Shown here: one piece after another, positions 15,301-21,054 of the stretch | Layout of the letters: the number at the start of each line of letters is the position of its first letter | How positions within the stretch are numbered: the stretch's first letter is position 1 | NCBI GenBank assembly: GCA_002104985.1 | Contig: MCGO01000115.1 | Coordinates: forward strand, 62,001-126,000 | DNA: 64,000 nt | Direction of reading: 5' to 3' | From: Rhizoclosmatium globosum | Lineage: Eukaryota; Chytridiomycota; Chytridiomycetes; Chytridiales; Chytriomycetaceae | Notes under the pieces: model-generated | The model's database searches: none | Told to the model about the DNA's origin: nothing | What the model saw: the letters and a program-made list of their open reading frames with translations, nothing else | Translations under genes and position numbers: made by a program

Positions 15301-15763
15301 AGTAAGCGATCTGTGAGCTGGGCGATTTTTAGTGTTATTAGTGTAAAGGAAATTGGGCAAGAGGTTGGTAAAGAAATCAACACACCGTCGAACCAATAAA
15401 TCCAGCTCCTCCTGTCACAAGAACATGAGTGCCATTCACGGGTGCTCCGATTTTGCTCTCAATCACTTGGTTGGCACAAGGATCTATAGTTACAGCTTGT
15501 GCACTTGCGAGGCTGTTGATAGTCGTTGTAGACGGTTGGACAAAATGCTTGGATGTTGTAGCAATATCAGGTTGGAGTGCTACGAATGGCTTCGGTGGTG
15601 ACGTCCATTCACGATTCAATGCTGTGAAGTCATATGTCAACAATCCCAAGCTGATTACAATCGCCAGTGTTACAAGCTTCGAATAAACAAGCGACTATCG
15701 GTATTACCGAGTCGAATAATTCTCACCTTGTTTTGATGGGTGCGTGCTCAGGCGCGTGTTCAT
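12335..15763 (-). CDS. NAD-epimerase / GT77-like / GT43-like fusion protein, frameshifted
   Basis: Predicted exons: 15763-15727 (5' end unresolved), 15676-15386, 15317-15056, 14995-14892, 14825-14257, 14205-14074, 14023-13720, 13662-12335; about 885 aa. After an apparent signal anchor (LVTLAIVISLGLL) comes a short-chain dehydrogenase/epimerase: VLVTGGAGFIGS, DYVFHLAA, catalytic YAASK, VYGPRQPSTGAY. The middle resembles nucleotide-diphospho-sugar transferases (GT77: YYVVGTTNATHQEC). The C-terminus matches GT43 glucuronosyl/xylosyltransferases: LWIIAEDSNVIDPVVTRLL, HPLDDDGYA, GLGPEGMEY, HAGWAERKYPFDY. Near 13585-13597 one base is missing relative to the expected frame (LIDSLLET shifts to GTEFAFVTDC). 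Exon 1 also joins out of phase by one. Probably a type II Golgi membrane enzyme that makes and transfers sugars; this is inferred. Confidence 0.7.
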
Positions 15764-15880
15764 CTAATTTGGACCGTACGTAAGGGATAATGGGGAATTG
15801 TCGGGATTTTCTTCTTTGTTGTTTTTCCCGTTTTCCCCTTTCTTTTTTTTCTTTCTTCGAAGTTATTGCAGTTTCTTATC

Positions 15881-16375
15881 TGTTGATGTTCGAGGGCTGG
15901 ATTCACATCCAGTTGGATTCATTATCCCTCTGCTCCGTCAACAGAGATTATCACAATATAAACTCTTTATATTTATCTTTATTTAATTGTAAATAAAACA
16001 CATCTTCTCGACTTATACTTCTTGCTTCGAAGGACACAACACTTAACATCTTCCTAGGAGATATAGTGAAAGGGACGCCTTGACCATCCGTGGGTTGTGC
16101 TTTTGGATCTAGCAGTATGGGTTTTCAAGCTGCTCAGAGAGATTGAGAAGATTTAATGGTTTTCAACCAATCAGAACGCTTCATCACAGTGTTGACAAAT
16201 GGGTCCCATTGACCCATTGGCCCTTATACAACAAGGACCATTTACCCATTCAGTGATTGGTAAACACCAAAGTGGCAGTAAAAACACCTATAAGAAGGGT
16301 GGAGTCTGCAGCAAGAAAGACTCAGTTCTCTCTTGACACACAAAACCCAACAGCTCTCAAGCTCACTGTTCAACA
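15881..16375 (+). repeat. 5' LTR of copia element
   Basis: 495 bp, TG...CA ends, nearly identical to 18598-19092. It contains an A/T-rich stretch with ATAAAA-like sequence (about 15958-16005) that could serve promoter or polyadenylation roles. I did not find a convincing tRNA primer-binding site immediately downstream; the gag ATG lies only 15 bp after the LTR. Confidence 0.92.
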
Positions 16376-16390
16376 CAAAAGCAATCCAAT

Positions 16391-16882
16391 ATGGTCCACA
16401 CTACCGATATTCTCAAGTCCGGTCTCCGCCCCAAGCGCTTTACCGGATCCACTCACTTGGACCTTGTCCAGTATGTCCGTGACAAGATCATGCCATACGC
16501 TCGCTCCCATGGCCTTGCCAGTGTTTTAGCCGCTGGTTATGACGTTGGTCCAGCTCCCCAGATTCCAGTGGTCCTTGCTGCCATCGCCAATCCAGGCCCA
16601 CTCCCAGTGGGTGCCAATGCTGGTGCACGTGCACAATGGGACTCGGCTTGGAAAACTTACCAAGACCAACAGTCCACCAATCATGACGCTCAGAAGTTGT
16701 ACTTCGATGAACGCAAGCGTCATGAGGATCGGTTTGAGAAGAATGACAAAGCCAACGCCATTCTTCACGAATGTTTCTCCACATACGACATGTCTCGTGT
16801 CGCTATGCATGACAATGCTTCCCAGAAGCTTGTGACTTTGCTCTCCCTCTACAATGCTGGAGGGCTTACCGGTTCCGACTGA
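16391..16882 (+). CDS. copia gag-like protein (163 aa)
   Basis: It begins 15 bp after the 5' LTR (MVHTTDILKSGLRPKRFTG). The protein is helix-rich and charged, as expected for a capsid N-terminal half, and has no CCHC zinc knuckle. The frame stops just as the pol remnant begins in another frame, so it is a truncated gag created by the internal deletion. Confidence 0.6.
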   Translation: MVHTTDILKSGLRPKRFTGSTHLDLVQYVRDKIMPYARSHGLASVLAAGYDVGPAPQIPVVLAAIANPGPLPVGANAGARAQWDSAWKTYQDQQSTNHDAQKLYFDERKRHEDRFEKNDKANAILHECFSTYDMSRVAMHDNASQKLVTLLSLYNAGGLTGSD

Positions 16883-18584
16883 AACTTTGAAAAAGGGGAA
16901 CTTGCCTCCTGCTCCAAAGGATATCGAAGAGGCCATGGCAGACCCAGTCTTTGCTGCCTACTGGTTAGCTGCCATGATAAGGGAAATAAATGACCTCGTT
17001 AAAAACGAGACTTGGCAAGAAACTGTTCTGCCAAAAGGTGCGCGTCTCATGACTGGTAAATGGGTTTTTGACTACAAAATCTCAAAGAACGATGTTGTAC
17101 TTCGTTTTAAAGCGAGATGGGTAGCCCGTGGCTTCTCTCAAGTGAAGAACATTGACTATTTTCACACCTACTCTCCAGTAGCCCGAGCTGAGACTATCAG
17201 ATTCCTGATTGCTTTCGCTGCTCTTGTTGGAAAGTTTGTTATGGTGGTAGATGTTCCCAACGCGTTTGTTCACGGTGATACCGATACAGAACTGTATTTG
17301 GAGATGCCTCACGGTTTCAAGAAAGTAAACCTTCATGGACAACAGATTGTCTGTAGGCTCTTGAAAAGCTTGTATGGAATACATCAAGCCAGTCGTATCT
17401 GGTTTGAAACACTTGTTGCTTTTCATAAATCTCTTGGGTTTGAAACTAATCAGGCTGACACTTGTCACATGATTAAGGATATTCCCTCTACAACCAATTC
17501 TGAACCTGTCAACACTTTACAGATGGCATGTCATGTTGACGATCTCTTGTACCTAACTGAGGACAGAGTTGCCGCTGAGAATCAGCTCCTCAAACTTAAT
17601 GCTAAGTTTGGTAGAGGGACCCAAGGTCCTGCTGAATGGTTTCTCAAAACTGAAATTGTGCAGTTTGAAAACTGTACTTGGGTTGGTCAACCAACCTATG
17701 TTCGACAGATTCTGCAATTTGTAGGAATGCAGGACTCAAATGCGTCTGCAAAAACACCCATGTCCCCAAAATGGAAACATGACACCACACTTGTCTACTT
17801 AGATGTTGTTGAGTCTGCGGCATATAGATCTGTGATCATGTGTTTAGCGTATTTGGCGGGGAAGACGCGACCAGATCTTTCATGTAGTGTTGGAATTCTT
17901 GCGCAATTCCAAGTTCAACCTACAAATGGTGATATGTTAGCACTGAAGCGCATCCTCACTTATCTCTGTGGGAAGCGCGATCTCGGACTTTGTTACAATT
18001 AAACAAACCAAACTATTCAACGTGTTGACGGGGGAAATTATTTCCTCAATGATCCAATTCAACGACCTATTTGCTATGCTGATGCATCATATGCAGAAGA
18101 GGTAAACAGGGCATCACGCTCTGGTATTGTGATTTTATTCGCTGGATCTGCCATCATGTGGCAATCCAAGAAACAGTCAGTGATTGCTCAGTCATCAACT
18201 GAGGCTGAAATCATTGCTCTTTCTGAAGCAATTCGCGAATGCTTATGGCTTCTTCAAGTTATGAAAGCTTCAAAAATCACTGGTCAGGATCATCTTGTTA
18301 TCAAACAAGATAACACATCTGCTGTCTTGATCACTGAAAATCAAGGCCAACACGCTCCACGTGTCAAACACATGGATGTAAAGGATAGATTCATTGGCCA
18401 CCACATTACCAATGGTAATATTGTTTTAGAAAGATGCCCAACTGAAAAGATGTGGGCTAATTTTCTGACAAAGCCTGTTGGGCCATCTGAACATGATGCC
18501 GCCACAAATAATCTTGGCATGAGGAGTTTGGCTATGTTGCAAGACGTCAATACTCTCATCACACCCCGAGACGCAGCAAAGTAA
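16854..18584 (+). pseudogene. copia pol remnant: reverse transcriptase and RNase H with a stop
   Basis: One frame covers the region except for a TAA at 18000-18002. The RT part shows the copia pattern (GKWVFDYKISKN, KARWVARGFSQ, YSPVARAETIRFL), and the RNase H part shows CYADASYAEE, SSTEAEIIALSEA and LTKPVG. The usual YVDD catalytic box reads CHVDD, and the usual SLYGLKQAP box reads SLYGIHQAS, so activity is doubtful. The 5' part of pol (protease and integrase) is deleted. Confidence 0.85.
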
Positions 18585-18597
18585 TAATGCGGGGGAA

Positions 18598-19092
18598 TGT
18601 TGATGTTCGAGGGCTGGATTCACATCCAGTTGGATTCATTATCCCTCTGCTCCGTCAACAGAGATTATCACAATATAAACTCTTTATATTTATCTTTATT
18701 TAATTGTAAATAAAACACATCTTCTCGACTCATACTTCTTGCTTCGAAGGACACAACACTTAACATCTTCCTAGGAGATATAGTGAAAGGGACGCCTTGA
18801 CCATCCGTGGGTTGTGCTTTTGGATCTAGCAGTATGGGTTTTCAAGCTGCTCAGAGAGATTGAGAAGATTTAATGGTTTTCAACCAATCAGAACGCTTCA
18901 TCACAGTGTTGACAAATGGGTCCCATTGACCCATTGGCCCTTATACAACAAGGACCATTTACCCATTCAGTGATTGGTAAACACCAAAGTGGCAGTAAAA
19001 ACACCTATAAGAAGGGTGGAGTCTGCAGCAAGAAAGACTCAGTTCTCTCTTGACACACAAAACCCAACAGCTCTCAAGCTCACTGTTCAACA
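18598..19092 (+). repeat. 3' LTR of copia element
   Basis: 495 bp, matching 15881-16375 except for one visible C/T difference (around 18731). It is followed by the target-site copy TTATC. Confidence 0.92.
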
Positions 19093-19097
19093 TTATC

Positions 19098-19630
19098 TTA
19101 AGCGTTGCGCTGCTCTTAATTAGGTGGAGTGTTGTTCATTGGGTTCTTGTTTCCTTATCGGCGTTTTTCTTATTCGTTGCGATCCTCAGGTTTCTCCCTC
19201 TCATTCAATACACCACTGCTCCGAGTTTAAGTTCGCTGACTCGACTAAAAGGTGTGATTTTGAGGGTTCATTATGAAACTGATGGACTGGGAACGTTAGG
19301 TGTTTATTGATTTGAGTTGCCGTTGGAAACATATTGGACTGAACGCGTTATACCTTATTAAGGTGGAGTTTTGGCGGTCTTATACTCTTATCAGTTTCTT
19401 ATCTTTCTTTATACCTTTGGTTTTCCAGGTTCTACACTCTCTCCCATTTACTGCTCCCCTTTACACGTTGTTAACGTCAAACTTCGTGCACAAAAGGTAT
19501 GAGACAGTGAGAGTGTTGAACATCTCTGATTGGTGGAGCGTCACTAGGTTAGAAGCTTCGGCTTGTTATATTATTGCTCCCCTCTCAACTTACACAAACA
19601 CAATCAAACCAAAAGGTATTTTCTTTTAAT
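19098..19630 (+). other. parental array of alternating GT...AG modules (E and D)
   Basis: Ten consecutive segments, each starting GT and ending AG. E1 is split by the retrotransposon (15862-15880 plus 19098-19123); then D1 19124-19189, E2 19190-19251, D2 19252-19299, E3 19300-19362, D3 19363-19428, E4 19429-19496, D4 19497-19547, E5 19548-19615, then unrepeated sequence with AATAAA at 19628-19633. E modules are 45-68 bp and most share a TGCTC(C) core and an AAAAG end. D segments are 66, 48, 66 and 51 bp, all multiples of three, and one frame stays open through D1-D3. Either E are exons and D introns, or the reverse; only E modules recur in the array at 19641-20200. No known gene recognised. 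Confidence 0.6.
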
Positions 19631-19640
19631 AAATTAGGAA

Positions 19641-20200
19641 GTTATTGCAGTTTCTTATCTTAAGCGTTGCGCTGCTCTTAATTAGGTTTCTCCCTCTCAT
19701 TCAATACACCACTGCTCCGAGTTTAAGTTCGCTGACTCGACTAAAAGGTGTTTATTGATTTGAGTTGCCGTTGGAAACATATTGGACTGAACGCGTTATA
19801 CCTTATTAAGGTTCTACACTCTCTCCCATTTACTGCTCCCCTTTACACGTTGTTAACGTCAAACTTCGTGCACAAAAGGTTAGAAGCTTCGGCTTGTTAT
19901 ATTATTGCTCCCCTCTCAACTTACACAAACACAATCAAACCAAAAGGTTTCTCCCTCTCATTCAATACACCACTGCTCCGAGTTTAAGTTCGCTGACTCG
20001 ACTAAAAGGTTCTACACTCTCTCCCATTTACTGCTCCCCTTTACACGTTGTTAACGTCAAACTTCGTGCACAAAAGGTTTCTCCCTCTCATTCAATACAC
20101 CACTGCTCCGAGTTTAAGTTCGCTGACTTGACTAAAAGGTTTCTCCCTCTCATTCAATACACCACTGCTCCGAGTTTAAGTTCGCTGACTCGACTAAAAG
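19641..20200 (+). mobile_element. 560-bp insert made of nine joined E modules
   Basis: Exact concatenation without D segments: E1 19641-19685, E2 19686-19747, E3 19748-19810, E4 19811-19878, E5 19879-19946, E2 19947-20008, E4 20009-20076, E2 20077-20138 (one base change), E2 20139-20200. The insert starts GT, ends AG and is flanked by a 9-bp direct repeat AATTAGGAA (19632-19640 and 20201-20209), as expected for insertion with target duplication. Its E1 lacks the retrotransposon, so it was copied before that insertion. The first five modules keep parental order; the last four are reordered. Confidence 0.75.
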
Positions 20201-20334
20201 AATTAGGAACGCCAACACATCATTGCCCATCTTAACCCATTGCTAGTCGTCATACTACCATTGGGAACAATAGAAATCAAATCTATTTTTATTACATACA
20301 AGCATCAACGGCTACAGTTGACAAGTTAAATTTA

Positions 20335-21054
20335 TTATTTACATCTATCTATTCGTACTCGTTGGTTGCTTGTTACACCAGTGACGAAATAAGTAGCCGA
20401 AATGGAAACGCCTGCAAGCGCATAGTAAGCAAACGAATTAGGGCGAGACTTAATGGCTGGGTCACCATGTGCAGTTTTGGATGGCTGAAAAGTTGGATGG
20501 AGGGAGAGAAAACTAATTTCCACTTTTATGATATATCTCCAAATGAAAGATTATTGATTCAAGACACCGACACCATTGATAGCGGAACCATGAGTATGAA
20601 CATGAAATTAATTACTGATCCAAGACACTGCCTGTCCTACAAGCTTGTTATTTTCTTGGCTCATCACATTCCAAATCAAAGCTTCGTGAACCATTGCTTC
20701 ACCATTGAATCGAGCTTGAGTGACGCAATATCCGTCCTTAGACGCTGCTTCCATGGCTGTACTCCATTCATTAGGATTACTTTTCAGCAGACGTAGAAGA
20801 TTCGTATTCCGCAGTCCTGAATTTGAGGCAAGGTTGAGTTGTTTCAGTGCTTGAGTGTTTGCATACTCCAGTTTAATATCGGCATAGTTTTGTAGAAACT
20901 GATATGCACTTGTCGGAGAAGGTAACAGGGTGTCAAATGATGGATGAACAGCCGGCAAGTCCTCACATGATTGGACGGCGAAAGTCCTTGAGGATGGGAG
21001 CGGCACTTTCGGGGATGCATTGACTGCGCATGATACGAAGCTGTTTCGGGACAT
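20335..21054 (-). CDS. hypothetical protein, two exons (187 aa)
   Basis: Exon 1 is 21054-20641 and exon 2 is 20484-20335, joined in phase by a GTAGGA donor and a CTTTTCAG acceptor (156-nt intron). Exon 1 encodes a mostly helical, Asn/Ser-rich region with no recognised domain. Exon 2 ends in a single hydrophobic segment (SFAYYALAGVSISATYFVTG), loosely like the membrane anchor of the Rieske iron-sulfur protein, but no Rieske domain follows. AATAAA overlaps the stop region. The donor choice is uncertain; GTAATT, 19 bases further on, is an alternative. Divergent from the coiled-coil gene, with 85 bp between starts. Confidence 0.5.

Follow-up and report, generated by a model that had tools for sequence, protein, structure and literature searches.

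A Ty3/gypsy-type LTR of Rhizoclosmatium globosum that reads best as carrying its own leader twice, unspliced and spliced

In the 64,000 nucleotides of Rhizoclosmatium globosum DNA analysed here (the window), nine modules of five kinds are joined head to tail in the order E1-E2-E3-E4-E5-E2-E4-E2-E2, next to a parental locus where the five kinds occur once each, separated by the segments D1 to D4. An earlier note had placed this array at 19641-20200 and given the D segments lengths of 66, 48, 66 and 51 bp. The order is as described, and the lengths are correct with each D segment beginning with GT and ending with AG, while the repeat of parental E1 begins three bases earlier than was claimed, at 19638 (GAAGTTATTG). 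Which of the two classes, E or D, is removed from RNA, and by what route did the joined modules come to stand beside the separated ones?

The repeat and its retrotransposon

The parental modules and the array belong to one repeat unit which, according to the alignment of the fetched loci (L numbers, on contigs with C numbers), corresponds to window positions 15668-20377 minus an inserted copia element, and is 1493 nt long. Its outer features are as follows.

15668..20377, + strand: solo LTR, 1493 nt without the copia element, with the ends TGTTACAAGC...GCTTGTTACA (TG...CA)
15664..15667, no strand: left TSD of the solo LTR, CCAG, from flank comparison
20378..20381, no strand: right TSD of the solo LTR, CCAG, from flank comparison
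15668..15858, + strand: predicted U3, whose CT-rich 3' end precedes the predicted RNA start
15881..19092, + strand: copia element of 3.2 kb with an ORF containing RVT_2, inserted later than its host LTR
15876-15880 and 19093-19097: copia TSD, TTATC
15881-16375 and 18598-19092: copia LTRs of 495 nt each, with 1 mismatch between them

The copia copy is young. The modules lie where the earlier note had placed them, but the parental locus is a solo LTR interrupted by copia rather than a free-standing gene.

On three contigs (C347, C146 and C411) copies of the unit occur in pairs, 7-9 kb apart, with the same internal DNA between them; this DNA is about 6.3 kb long in C347 and carries an insertion in C146. 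Target-site duplications flank the repeat at four of the five array loci: CCAG in the window and CTTG in C15, both of which are solo LTRs, CATG in C347 and GAGC in C146. The outer 4-bp flanks of C411 gave no TSD match, and since its left flank is also 97% identical to that of C347, the C411 element may be a recombinant. No TSD is visible at the older copy L017. Two nucleotides past the left LTR starts a 14-nt primer-binding site, TGGCGAGCGTACCA, complementary to the 3' end of tRNA-Arg(ACG) plus CCA. The corresponding 20-nt tRNA 3' motif, TTCGACCCCTGGTACGCTCG, accounts for 26 of 82 pattern hits, and both examples that were fetched are tRNA-Arg(ACG) according to ARAGORN.

The internal ORFs have endonuclease/exonuclease/phosphatase, RT, RNase H, integrase zinc finger and integrase core domains, where RNase H and the integrase zinc finger score above their cut-offs and RT and the integrase core below theirs. 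In the C146 ORF the order is RVT_1, RNase H, H2C2 zinc finger and rve, with RVT_1 at 17.3 bits (cut-off 29.6) and rve at 21.2 bits (cut-off 32.6); RVT_1 exceeds its cut-off in the ORFs of the related elements on C412 and C301. The combination of paired TG...CA LTRs, TSD, tRNA primer site and RT-RNase H-integrase is that of a Ty3/gypsy-type LTR element. Paired copies, TSDs, primer-binding site and pol domains together identify the repeat as an LTR, and the window copy as a solo one, from a Ty3/gypsy-type retrotransposon of low copy number. In a genome search, a 945-nt piece of the internal DNA matched at least 3 places. A MITE or other TIR transposon, which the ends TGTTACAAGC...GCTTGTTACA had called to mind, was dropped, as paired copies bracket common internal DNA.

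The two LTRs of the C146 element differ by 1 substitution over 1491 positions, with 3 gap runs, and those of C347 by 1 over 1463, with 20 gap runs. With one substitution per pair, both elements are by this measure recent insertions. For C411 the numbers are 5 substitutions over 1038 positions and 8 gap runs.

Two further observations concern the elements themselves. An Exo_endo_phos domain (PF03372), typical of non-LTR elements, precedes the RT both here and in two related elements of the same genome; with a cut-off of 24.5 bits, it scores 61.5 in L009:5255-6721, 48.3 in L013:5423-9499 and 44.2 in L024:6-4586, and the match in L027:4724-9901 (22.2) falls below. The start of the small contig C347 is the DNA that directly follows C347-end DNA in C411 (the left flank of L009 and the right flank of L010 match the left flank of L015), as would be seen if C347 were circular or belonged to a tandem repeat.

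Exons, introns and a leader free of ATG

Inside the LTR, the region between U3 and the right end divides as listed here.

15859..19637, + strand: first R copy, unspliced, E1 D1 E2 D2 E3 D3 E4 D4 E5 plus 22 nt, with copia inside
15859-15880 plus 19098..19123, + strand: predicted exon E1, split by copia
19124..19189, + strand: predicted intron D1, 66 nt
19190..19251, + strand: predicted exon E2
19252..19299, + strand: predicted intron D2, 48 nt, with 2 ATG inside
19300..19362, + strand: predicted exon E3
19363..19428, + strand: predicted intron D3, 66 nt
19429..19496, + strand: predicted exon E4
19497..19547, + strand: predicted intron D4, 51 nt, with 1 ATG inside
19548..19615, + strand: predicted exon E5
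19616..19685, + strand: candidate composite intron of D5 and array E1, 70 nt, GT...AG, which would make the E5-E2 joint
19628..19633, + strand: AATAAA, possible poly(A) signal near the predicted R end
19632..19640, + strand: AATTAGGAA at the R-R junction, its GAA common with the start of E1
19638..20200, + strand: second R copy, apparently spliced, nine modules: E1 19638-19685, E2 to 19747, E3 to 19810, E4 to 19878, E5 to 19946, E2 to 20008, E4 to 20076, E2 to 20138, E2 to 20200
20201..20377, + strand: native continuation AATTAGGAACGCC..., R end and U5, without ATG

When the parental modules E1 to E5 are joined, the product is identical to window positions 19638-19946 at 309 of 309 positions, which means that D1 to D4 have been removed exactly. 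Seven of the eight E2-E5 modules of the array are identical to their parental counterparts, and the E2 at 20077-20138 has one substitution. There are thus two tandem units of GAAGTTATTGC...AATTAG, the first containing D1-D4 and the second lacking them, followed by GAACGCC; the two units join end to end with an overlap of 3 nt, GAA. The array is neither a chance likeness nor an assembly artefact of one place: a search of the organism's own genome (56.9 Mb in 420 contigs, where 14 candidates were scored) finds it in 8 LTR copies on 5 contigs, with all nine modules in order in 6 of the 8. Shortened arrays occur in L014, where E3 leads straight into E4-E5-E2-E4-E2-E2, and in L015, which is missing part of the array, and L009 has many 1-nt indels. 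In L015 (C411), array E4 is followed without a break by about 45 nt of dissimilar sequence with AAAAG at its end, which looks like a new exon end or local scrambling. An ordinary tandem satellite was ruled out, since the five modules are unlike and their order is non-periodic. The parental R was also considered as a product of three older R units, for which the unit-to-unit similarity, measured against simple base shuffles, is weak (z 3.2 to 4.4, with 1.2 for E1/E3, 1.1 for E2/E5 and 0.7 for D1/D4), a suggestion at most.

The E modules are best read as leader exons within an LTR, the D modules as introns of 48-66 nt, and the array as a copy of spliced R, so that the LTR would have the structure U3 - R(unspliced) - R(spliced) - U5. 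The host genes for Atg22 and a DUF3684 protein are 94% and 96% identical to those of Rhizoclosmatium sp. JEL0117, and spliced alignment to JEL0117 proteins, with a script that permits only GT...AG introns of 35-400 nt, gives ten introns of 44-65 nt in two neighbouring genes, every one of them ending with TAG or CAG. D1 to D4 end with TAG or CAG as well, whereas E2 to E5 end with AAG; in length, D1 and D3 exceed the longest of the ten introns by 1 nt. Donor and acceptor scores, from a matrix built on only these 10 introns of two genes, a small training set, sum to 5.7, 10.7, 6.9 and 9.3 bits for D1 to D4, and to 5.1, 6.1, -2.7 and 6.0 bits if E2 to E5 were the introns. The acceptors of E2 (1.5 bits), E4 (-3.3) and E5 (0.0) are poor, that of E3 (3.3) equals those of D2 and D4, and the donors of D1 (-0.2) and D3 (1.7) are weak. 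Since the sums for E2, E3 and E5 come near those for D1 and D3, the scores favour the D modules as introns but overlap, and alone they are indecisive. Deletions with GT-AG ends arise by chance in 0.8% of random draws, and in 167 of 1078 draws at equal microhomology. Taken with their host-like length and their removal in register from a cDNA-like copy, the GT...AG ends make D1 to D4 putative spliceosomal introns, of an RNA whose start and poly(A) site are likewise predictions.

More telling than the splice scores is the leader that the E modules would form. From the predicted RNA start to the ATG of gag, which lies 35 nt past the LTR (these 35 nt were taken from L015), the spliced leader of 775 nt contains no ATG, with 6.6 expected, and none of 500 dinucleotide shuffles is as low. 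Counting each exon once and adding U5 and the pre-gag sequence gives 521 nt, again without an ATG, where 5.7 are expected and 0 of 500 shuffles are as low. For the parts, E1-E5 alone are matched in ATG poverty by 17 of 500 shuffles, and U5 alone by 21 of 500. The D introns contain 3 ATG with 3.6 expected, and so show no enrichment; U3 has 2 (1.9 expected), and the antisense strand of exons and U5 has 12 (9.8 expected). Across the copies, the second R and U5 lack ATG in 6 of the 8 with an array. The 10 ATG of L012 all lie beyond the point where its LTR stops matching L013, inside a U5 insertion of its own, and L014, with a single E1, has 2, both in D2. In unspliced R-U5, each of the older LTRs L017, L018, L019 and L021 has a single ATG, which lies at the mutated D1 acceptor in L017 and L018 and at the end of an E4-like exon in L019 and L021. 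Taken together, the pattern is what a 5' leader composed of E exons would show.

Two variants may be added. The U5 insertion of L012, the 5' LTR of C146, is about 426 nt long and brings that LTR to 1919 nt as compared with 1493 nt. In L017 and L018, which have the right flank in common, the D1 acceptor has changed from CAG to CAT, by which the splice site was lost and the ATG created.

One observation counts against a spliced leader: introns spliced from the RNA should be shed at each reverse transcription, and yet, spliced copies aside, no copy long enough to include D1 lacks it (12 copies have D1). Consider now the reverse direction, in which an exon array came first and the D segments were gained later as introners, or in which the E modules are themselves introns. 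Every module does run from GT to AG, and the intron scores of E2, E3 and E5 are about those of D1. Yet D1 is present in the oldest copies, L019 and L021 (60 of 66 positions with that of L021, z 13.8), and also in L016-L018, and neither an ATG-free leader composed of E modules nor the AAG ends of E2 to E5, against TAG or CAG in ten of ten mapped introns, accords with such a history, which we find scarcely credible.

The same holds for the suggestion in the earlier note that the E modules are introns or introner-like elements, which would be looked for in genes throughout the genome. In four whole-genome searches with pieces of the LTR, whose counts are lower bounds, the E modules that can be placed were traced to copies of this LTR and to a single decayed fragment (C73, consisting of U3-like DNA, E2 and D2), not to genes at large, and an introner-like spread of E or D modules in unrelated genes was not found. 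C34 and C394 match U3 alone, without E2-D2, and the match in C402 is to the first 30 bases of a query, 27 of which lie upstream of the LTR. The other proposal of that note fares better: exons E, introns D and an array derived from reverse-transcribed spliced RNA agree with the 309 identical positions and the ATG-free leader, but the carrier is the leader of a retrotransposon LTR instead of a non-coding gene.

Origin of the joined copy

The array was also said to be bracketed by a 9-bp target-site duplication. AATTAGGAA does occur on both sides, at 19632-19640 and at 20201-20209, as the last six bases of each R unit followed by GAA. However, in the array-less L017 and L018, which consist of E1-D1-E2-U5 after U3, and in an inverted piece in L016, E2 continues directly into AATTAGGAAC, so the right copy of AATTAGGAA is native and not an insertion footprint; in L019 and L021, the exon before this native R-end junction is a relative of E4 (z 9.9). 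These results bear on the idea that RNA which had been spliced and back-spliced (circular), or trans-spliced, was retrocopied and went in as one piece with a 9-bp TSD. That E5-E2, E4-E2 and E2-E2 are out of genomic order, and that both flanks carry AATTAGGAA, is what such an event would leave, but the right flank is the normal continuation of E2, the left end lies at the same predicted RNA start as the copy in L016, and the E5-E2 joint can be had from a linear intron of 70 nt, D5 plus E1. A circular or trans-spliced source is for these reasons very improbable.

The copies without a known array are L016-L021 (on C364, C380, C46, C205, C374 and C146) and a few weak matches. L016 consists of E1-D1-E2-D2-E3 and part of D3, together with an inverted E1-E2-U5 that lacks D1. 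In a tree of U3-E1-D1, L016 falls outside the array copies, L020 and L017/L018 with a support of 77; a grouping of the array copies to the exclusion of L020, a truncated copy that may or may not have had an array, has a support of 43, and the other branch support is modest at 75-77. The inverted piece starts at the same place as E1 of the array (TCAAAG as compared with GAAG), and has a one-base deletion in common with the E2 of L016 itself. Since this piece is separate from the array and outside the array group, D1 was lost in register at least twice. The starts of the two cDNA-like copies lie no more than about 3 nt apart, which points to an RNA start at (C)GAAG, near 15859; this common 5' end also sets the right boundary of U3, and fungal start sites often follow a CT-rich stretch. 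The inverted spliced E1-E2-U5, at L016:4826-4980, is joined to D3 of the truncated LTR, and may be a hairpin-type product of reverse transcription.

Reverse transcription of an LTR element normally begins with strong-stop DNA, copied from R-U5 at the 5' end of the RNA, which then pairs with R at the 3' end. Suppose now that the RNA starts at (C)GAAG and that D1 to D4 are spliced from its 5' leader. Minus-strand strong-stop DNA made on the spliced leader would end at the 5' end of the RNA. If this DNA, instead of pairing with the start of R, were extended at the 3' end of an unspliced R, close to AATAAATTAGGAA, with GAA as the microhomology at the transfer, then U3 - R(unspliced) - R(spliced) - U5 would arise in a single step, by one first strand transfer to the wrong place. 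AATAAA, which ends 4-7 nt before the end of the first R, closer than usual, and is absent from the second R, could mark the poly(A) site of the first.

The array contains more than one set of exons, and can be written as [E1-E2-E3-E4-E5][E2-E4][E2][E2-U5], where the extra modules would be residues of earlier rounds. In a transcript with two R copies, splicing could connect the donor of E5 with the second copy at its E1|E2 boundary, by which E1 would be dropped and the series restarted at E2. The 70-nt D5+E1 segment that this would remove has a donor of 3.7 and an acceptor of 6.1 bits, and as it runs from GT to AG and gives the E5-E2 joint, back-splicing is unnecessary. The joints E2-E2, E4-E2 and E2-E4 would require exon skipping. 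All four joints (E5-E2, E2-E4, E4-E2 and E2-E2) use the acceptors of E2 and E4 only, which lie behind the pyrimidine-rich D1 and D3. No R-R intermediates with E2-E2 or E4-E2 were present among the LTR copies found.

The first and second R copies seem also to exchange sequence, judging from two positions. At position 33 of E3 the two window copies have T, and all six of the other LTRs with two copies (L009-L013 and L015) have A in each; the single E3 of L014 has A, and L016 has T. Position 26 of E2 is G in all five E2 modules of L012 and L013, G in three of five in L011, and A in the E2 modules of the other LTRs.

Two other routes lead to the same array with linear RNA. In the first, splicing of a longer ancestral leader, E1 D1 E2 D2 E3 D3 E4 D4 E5 D E2 D E4 D E2 D E2 U5, gave the array directly, and the cDNA recombined with an LTR, with neither repeated growth nor misplaced transfer. 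Ordinary cis-splicing then covers every joint, and recombination of module copies does seem to occur, as in L014 and L015. But no copy with an intron at E5-E2, E4-E2 or E2-E2 came out of the searches, which give lower bounds, and the position of the R-R junction at the predicted RNA start would still have to be explained; we regard this longer leader as unlikely, with perhaps one chance in a few. In the second route, transcripts read through several LTRs, of tandem elements or one-LTR circles, are spliced from LTR to LTR and reverse transcribed. All three restarts at E2, the first exon with an acceptor, would follow naturally. This demands, however, tandem LTRs or splicing over more than 6 kb, when the mapped introns are 44-65 nt long and directly adjacent LTRs were not seen in the fetched loci, and it seems distinctly improbable.

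On balance, the locus is probably explained by a solo LTR with introns in R, by misplaced transfer of a spliced strong-stop copy, and by extra modules left from earlier rounds. More tentatively, and with rather less than even chances, the process could act as a ratchet. An LTR with introns in R would grow each time a spliced strong-stop copy joins unspliced R end to end, and each joint would make a new composite intron, from the last donor of the older copy to the E1|E2 boundary, that allows more exons in the next round. The LTR would then be an ordered record of leader splicing, in which the unspliced copy re-supplies the introns. The ratchet is offered as a proposal that fits the origin of the extra exons E2-E4-E2-E2.

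Relation to known systems and meaning

With the Ty3/gypsy LTR retrotransposons (Metaviridae) the element has in common TG...CA LTRs, a tRNA primer site, RT-RNase H-integrase and a 4-bp TSD; it differs from them by a multi-intron leader inside R, by two R copies of which one is apparently spliced, and by an endonuclease/exonuclease/phosphatase domain before the RT. Its LTR of 1.49 kb is to be compared with 221-390 bp in five of seven related elements fetched from the same genome (C412, C301, C383, C203 and C397); the match on C368 was cut by the edge of the stretch, and C387 gave none. No array was seen by eye in those LTRs of related elements that were displayed. The C203 element contains a perfect tandem duplication of 136 bp (L031:1104-1239 and 1240-1375), covering R-U5 and the primer-site region in the 5' leader, and its 3' LTR seems single-copy for this unit, another end-to-start joint in leader DNA.

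HTLV-1 and foamy viruses have a splice donor in R; the intron that begins there extends out of the LTR, and U5 and the primer site are lost with it. Splicing signals lie in R in both cases, but here whole introns would be contained within the LTR. In circRNA-derived pseudogenes, DNA copies have exons in non-genomic order; the exon order is alike, but here linear splicing can make the joints and the flanks are not insertion footprints. Spliced HIV-1 RNAs are reverse transcribed, and strong-stop and first-transfer products were measured for a junction in the genome body, SD4/SA7 (PMC1868081); in the present case splicing would occur in the leader that templates strong-stop DNA, so that the product comes to lie in the LTR. 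The phrase 'intron in the LTR1.20 leader' in PMC5542766 is a vector's name and no precedent. Among titles and abstract openings of the open-access literature no account was found of an LTR that has introns within it and a spliced copy of R, which is not proof of absence. Rfam and tRNA scans of the window gave nothing, and a 25-base piece of E2 had 0 exact matches in viral contigs.

If the proposed explanation is true, the locus preserves in DNA a step that cannot normally be seen, the reverse transcription of a spliced leader followed by a misplaced first strand transfer. It would also show a route by which an LTR can grow several-fold, how introns can live in an LTR in spite of its passage through RNA in each cycle, and in what way a long leader can be kept without upstream ATGs.
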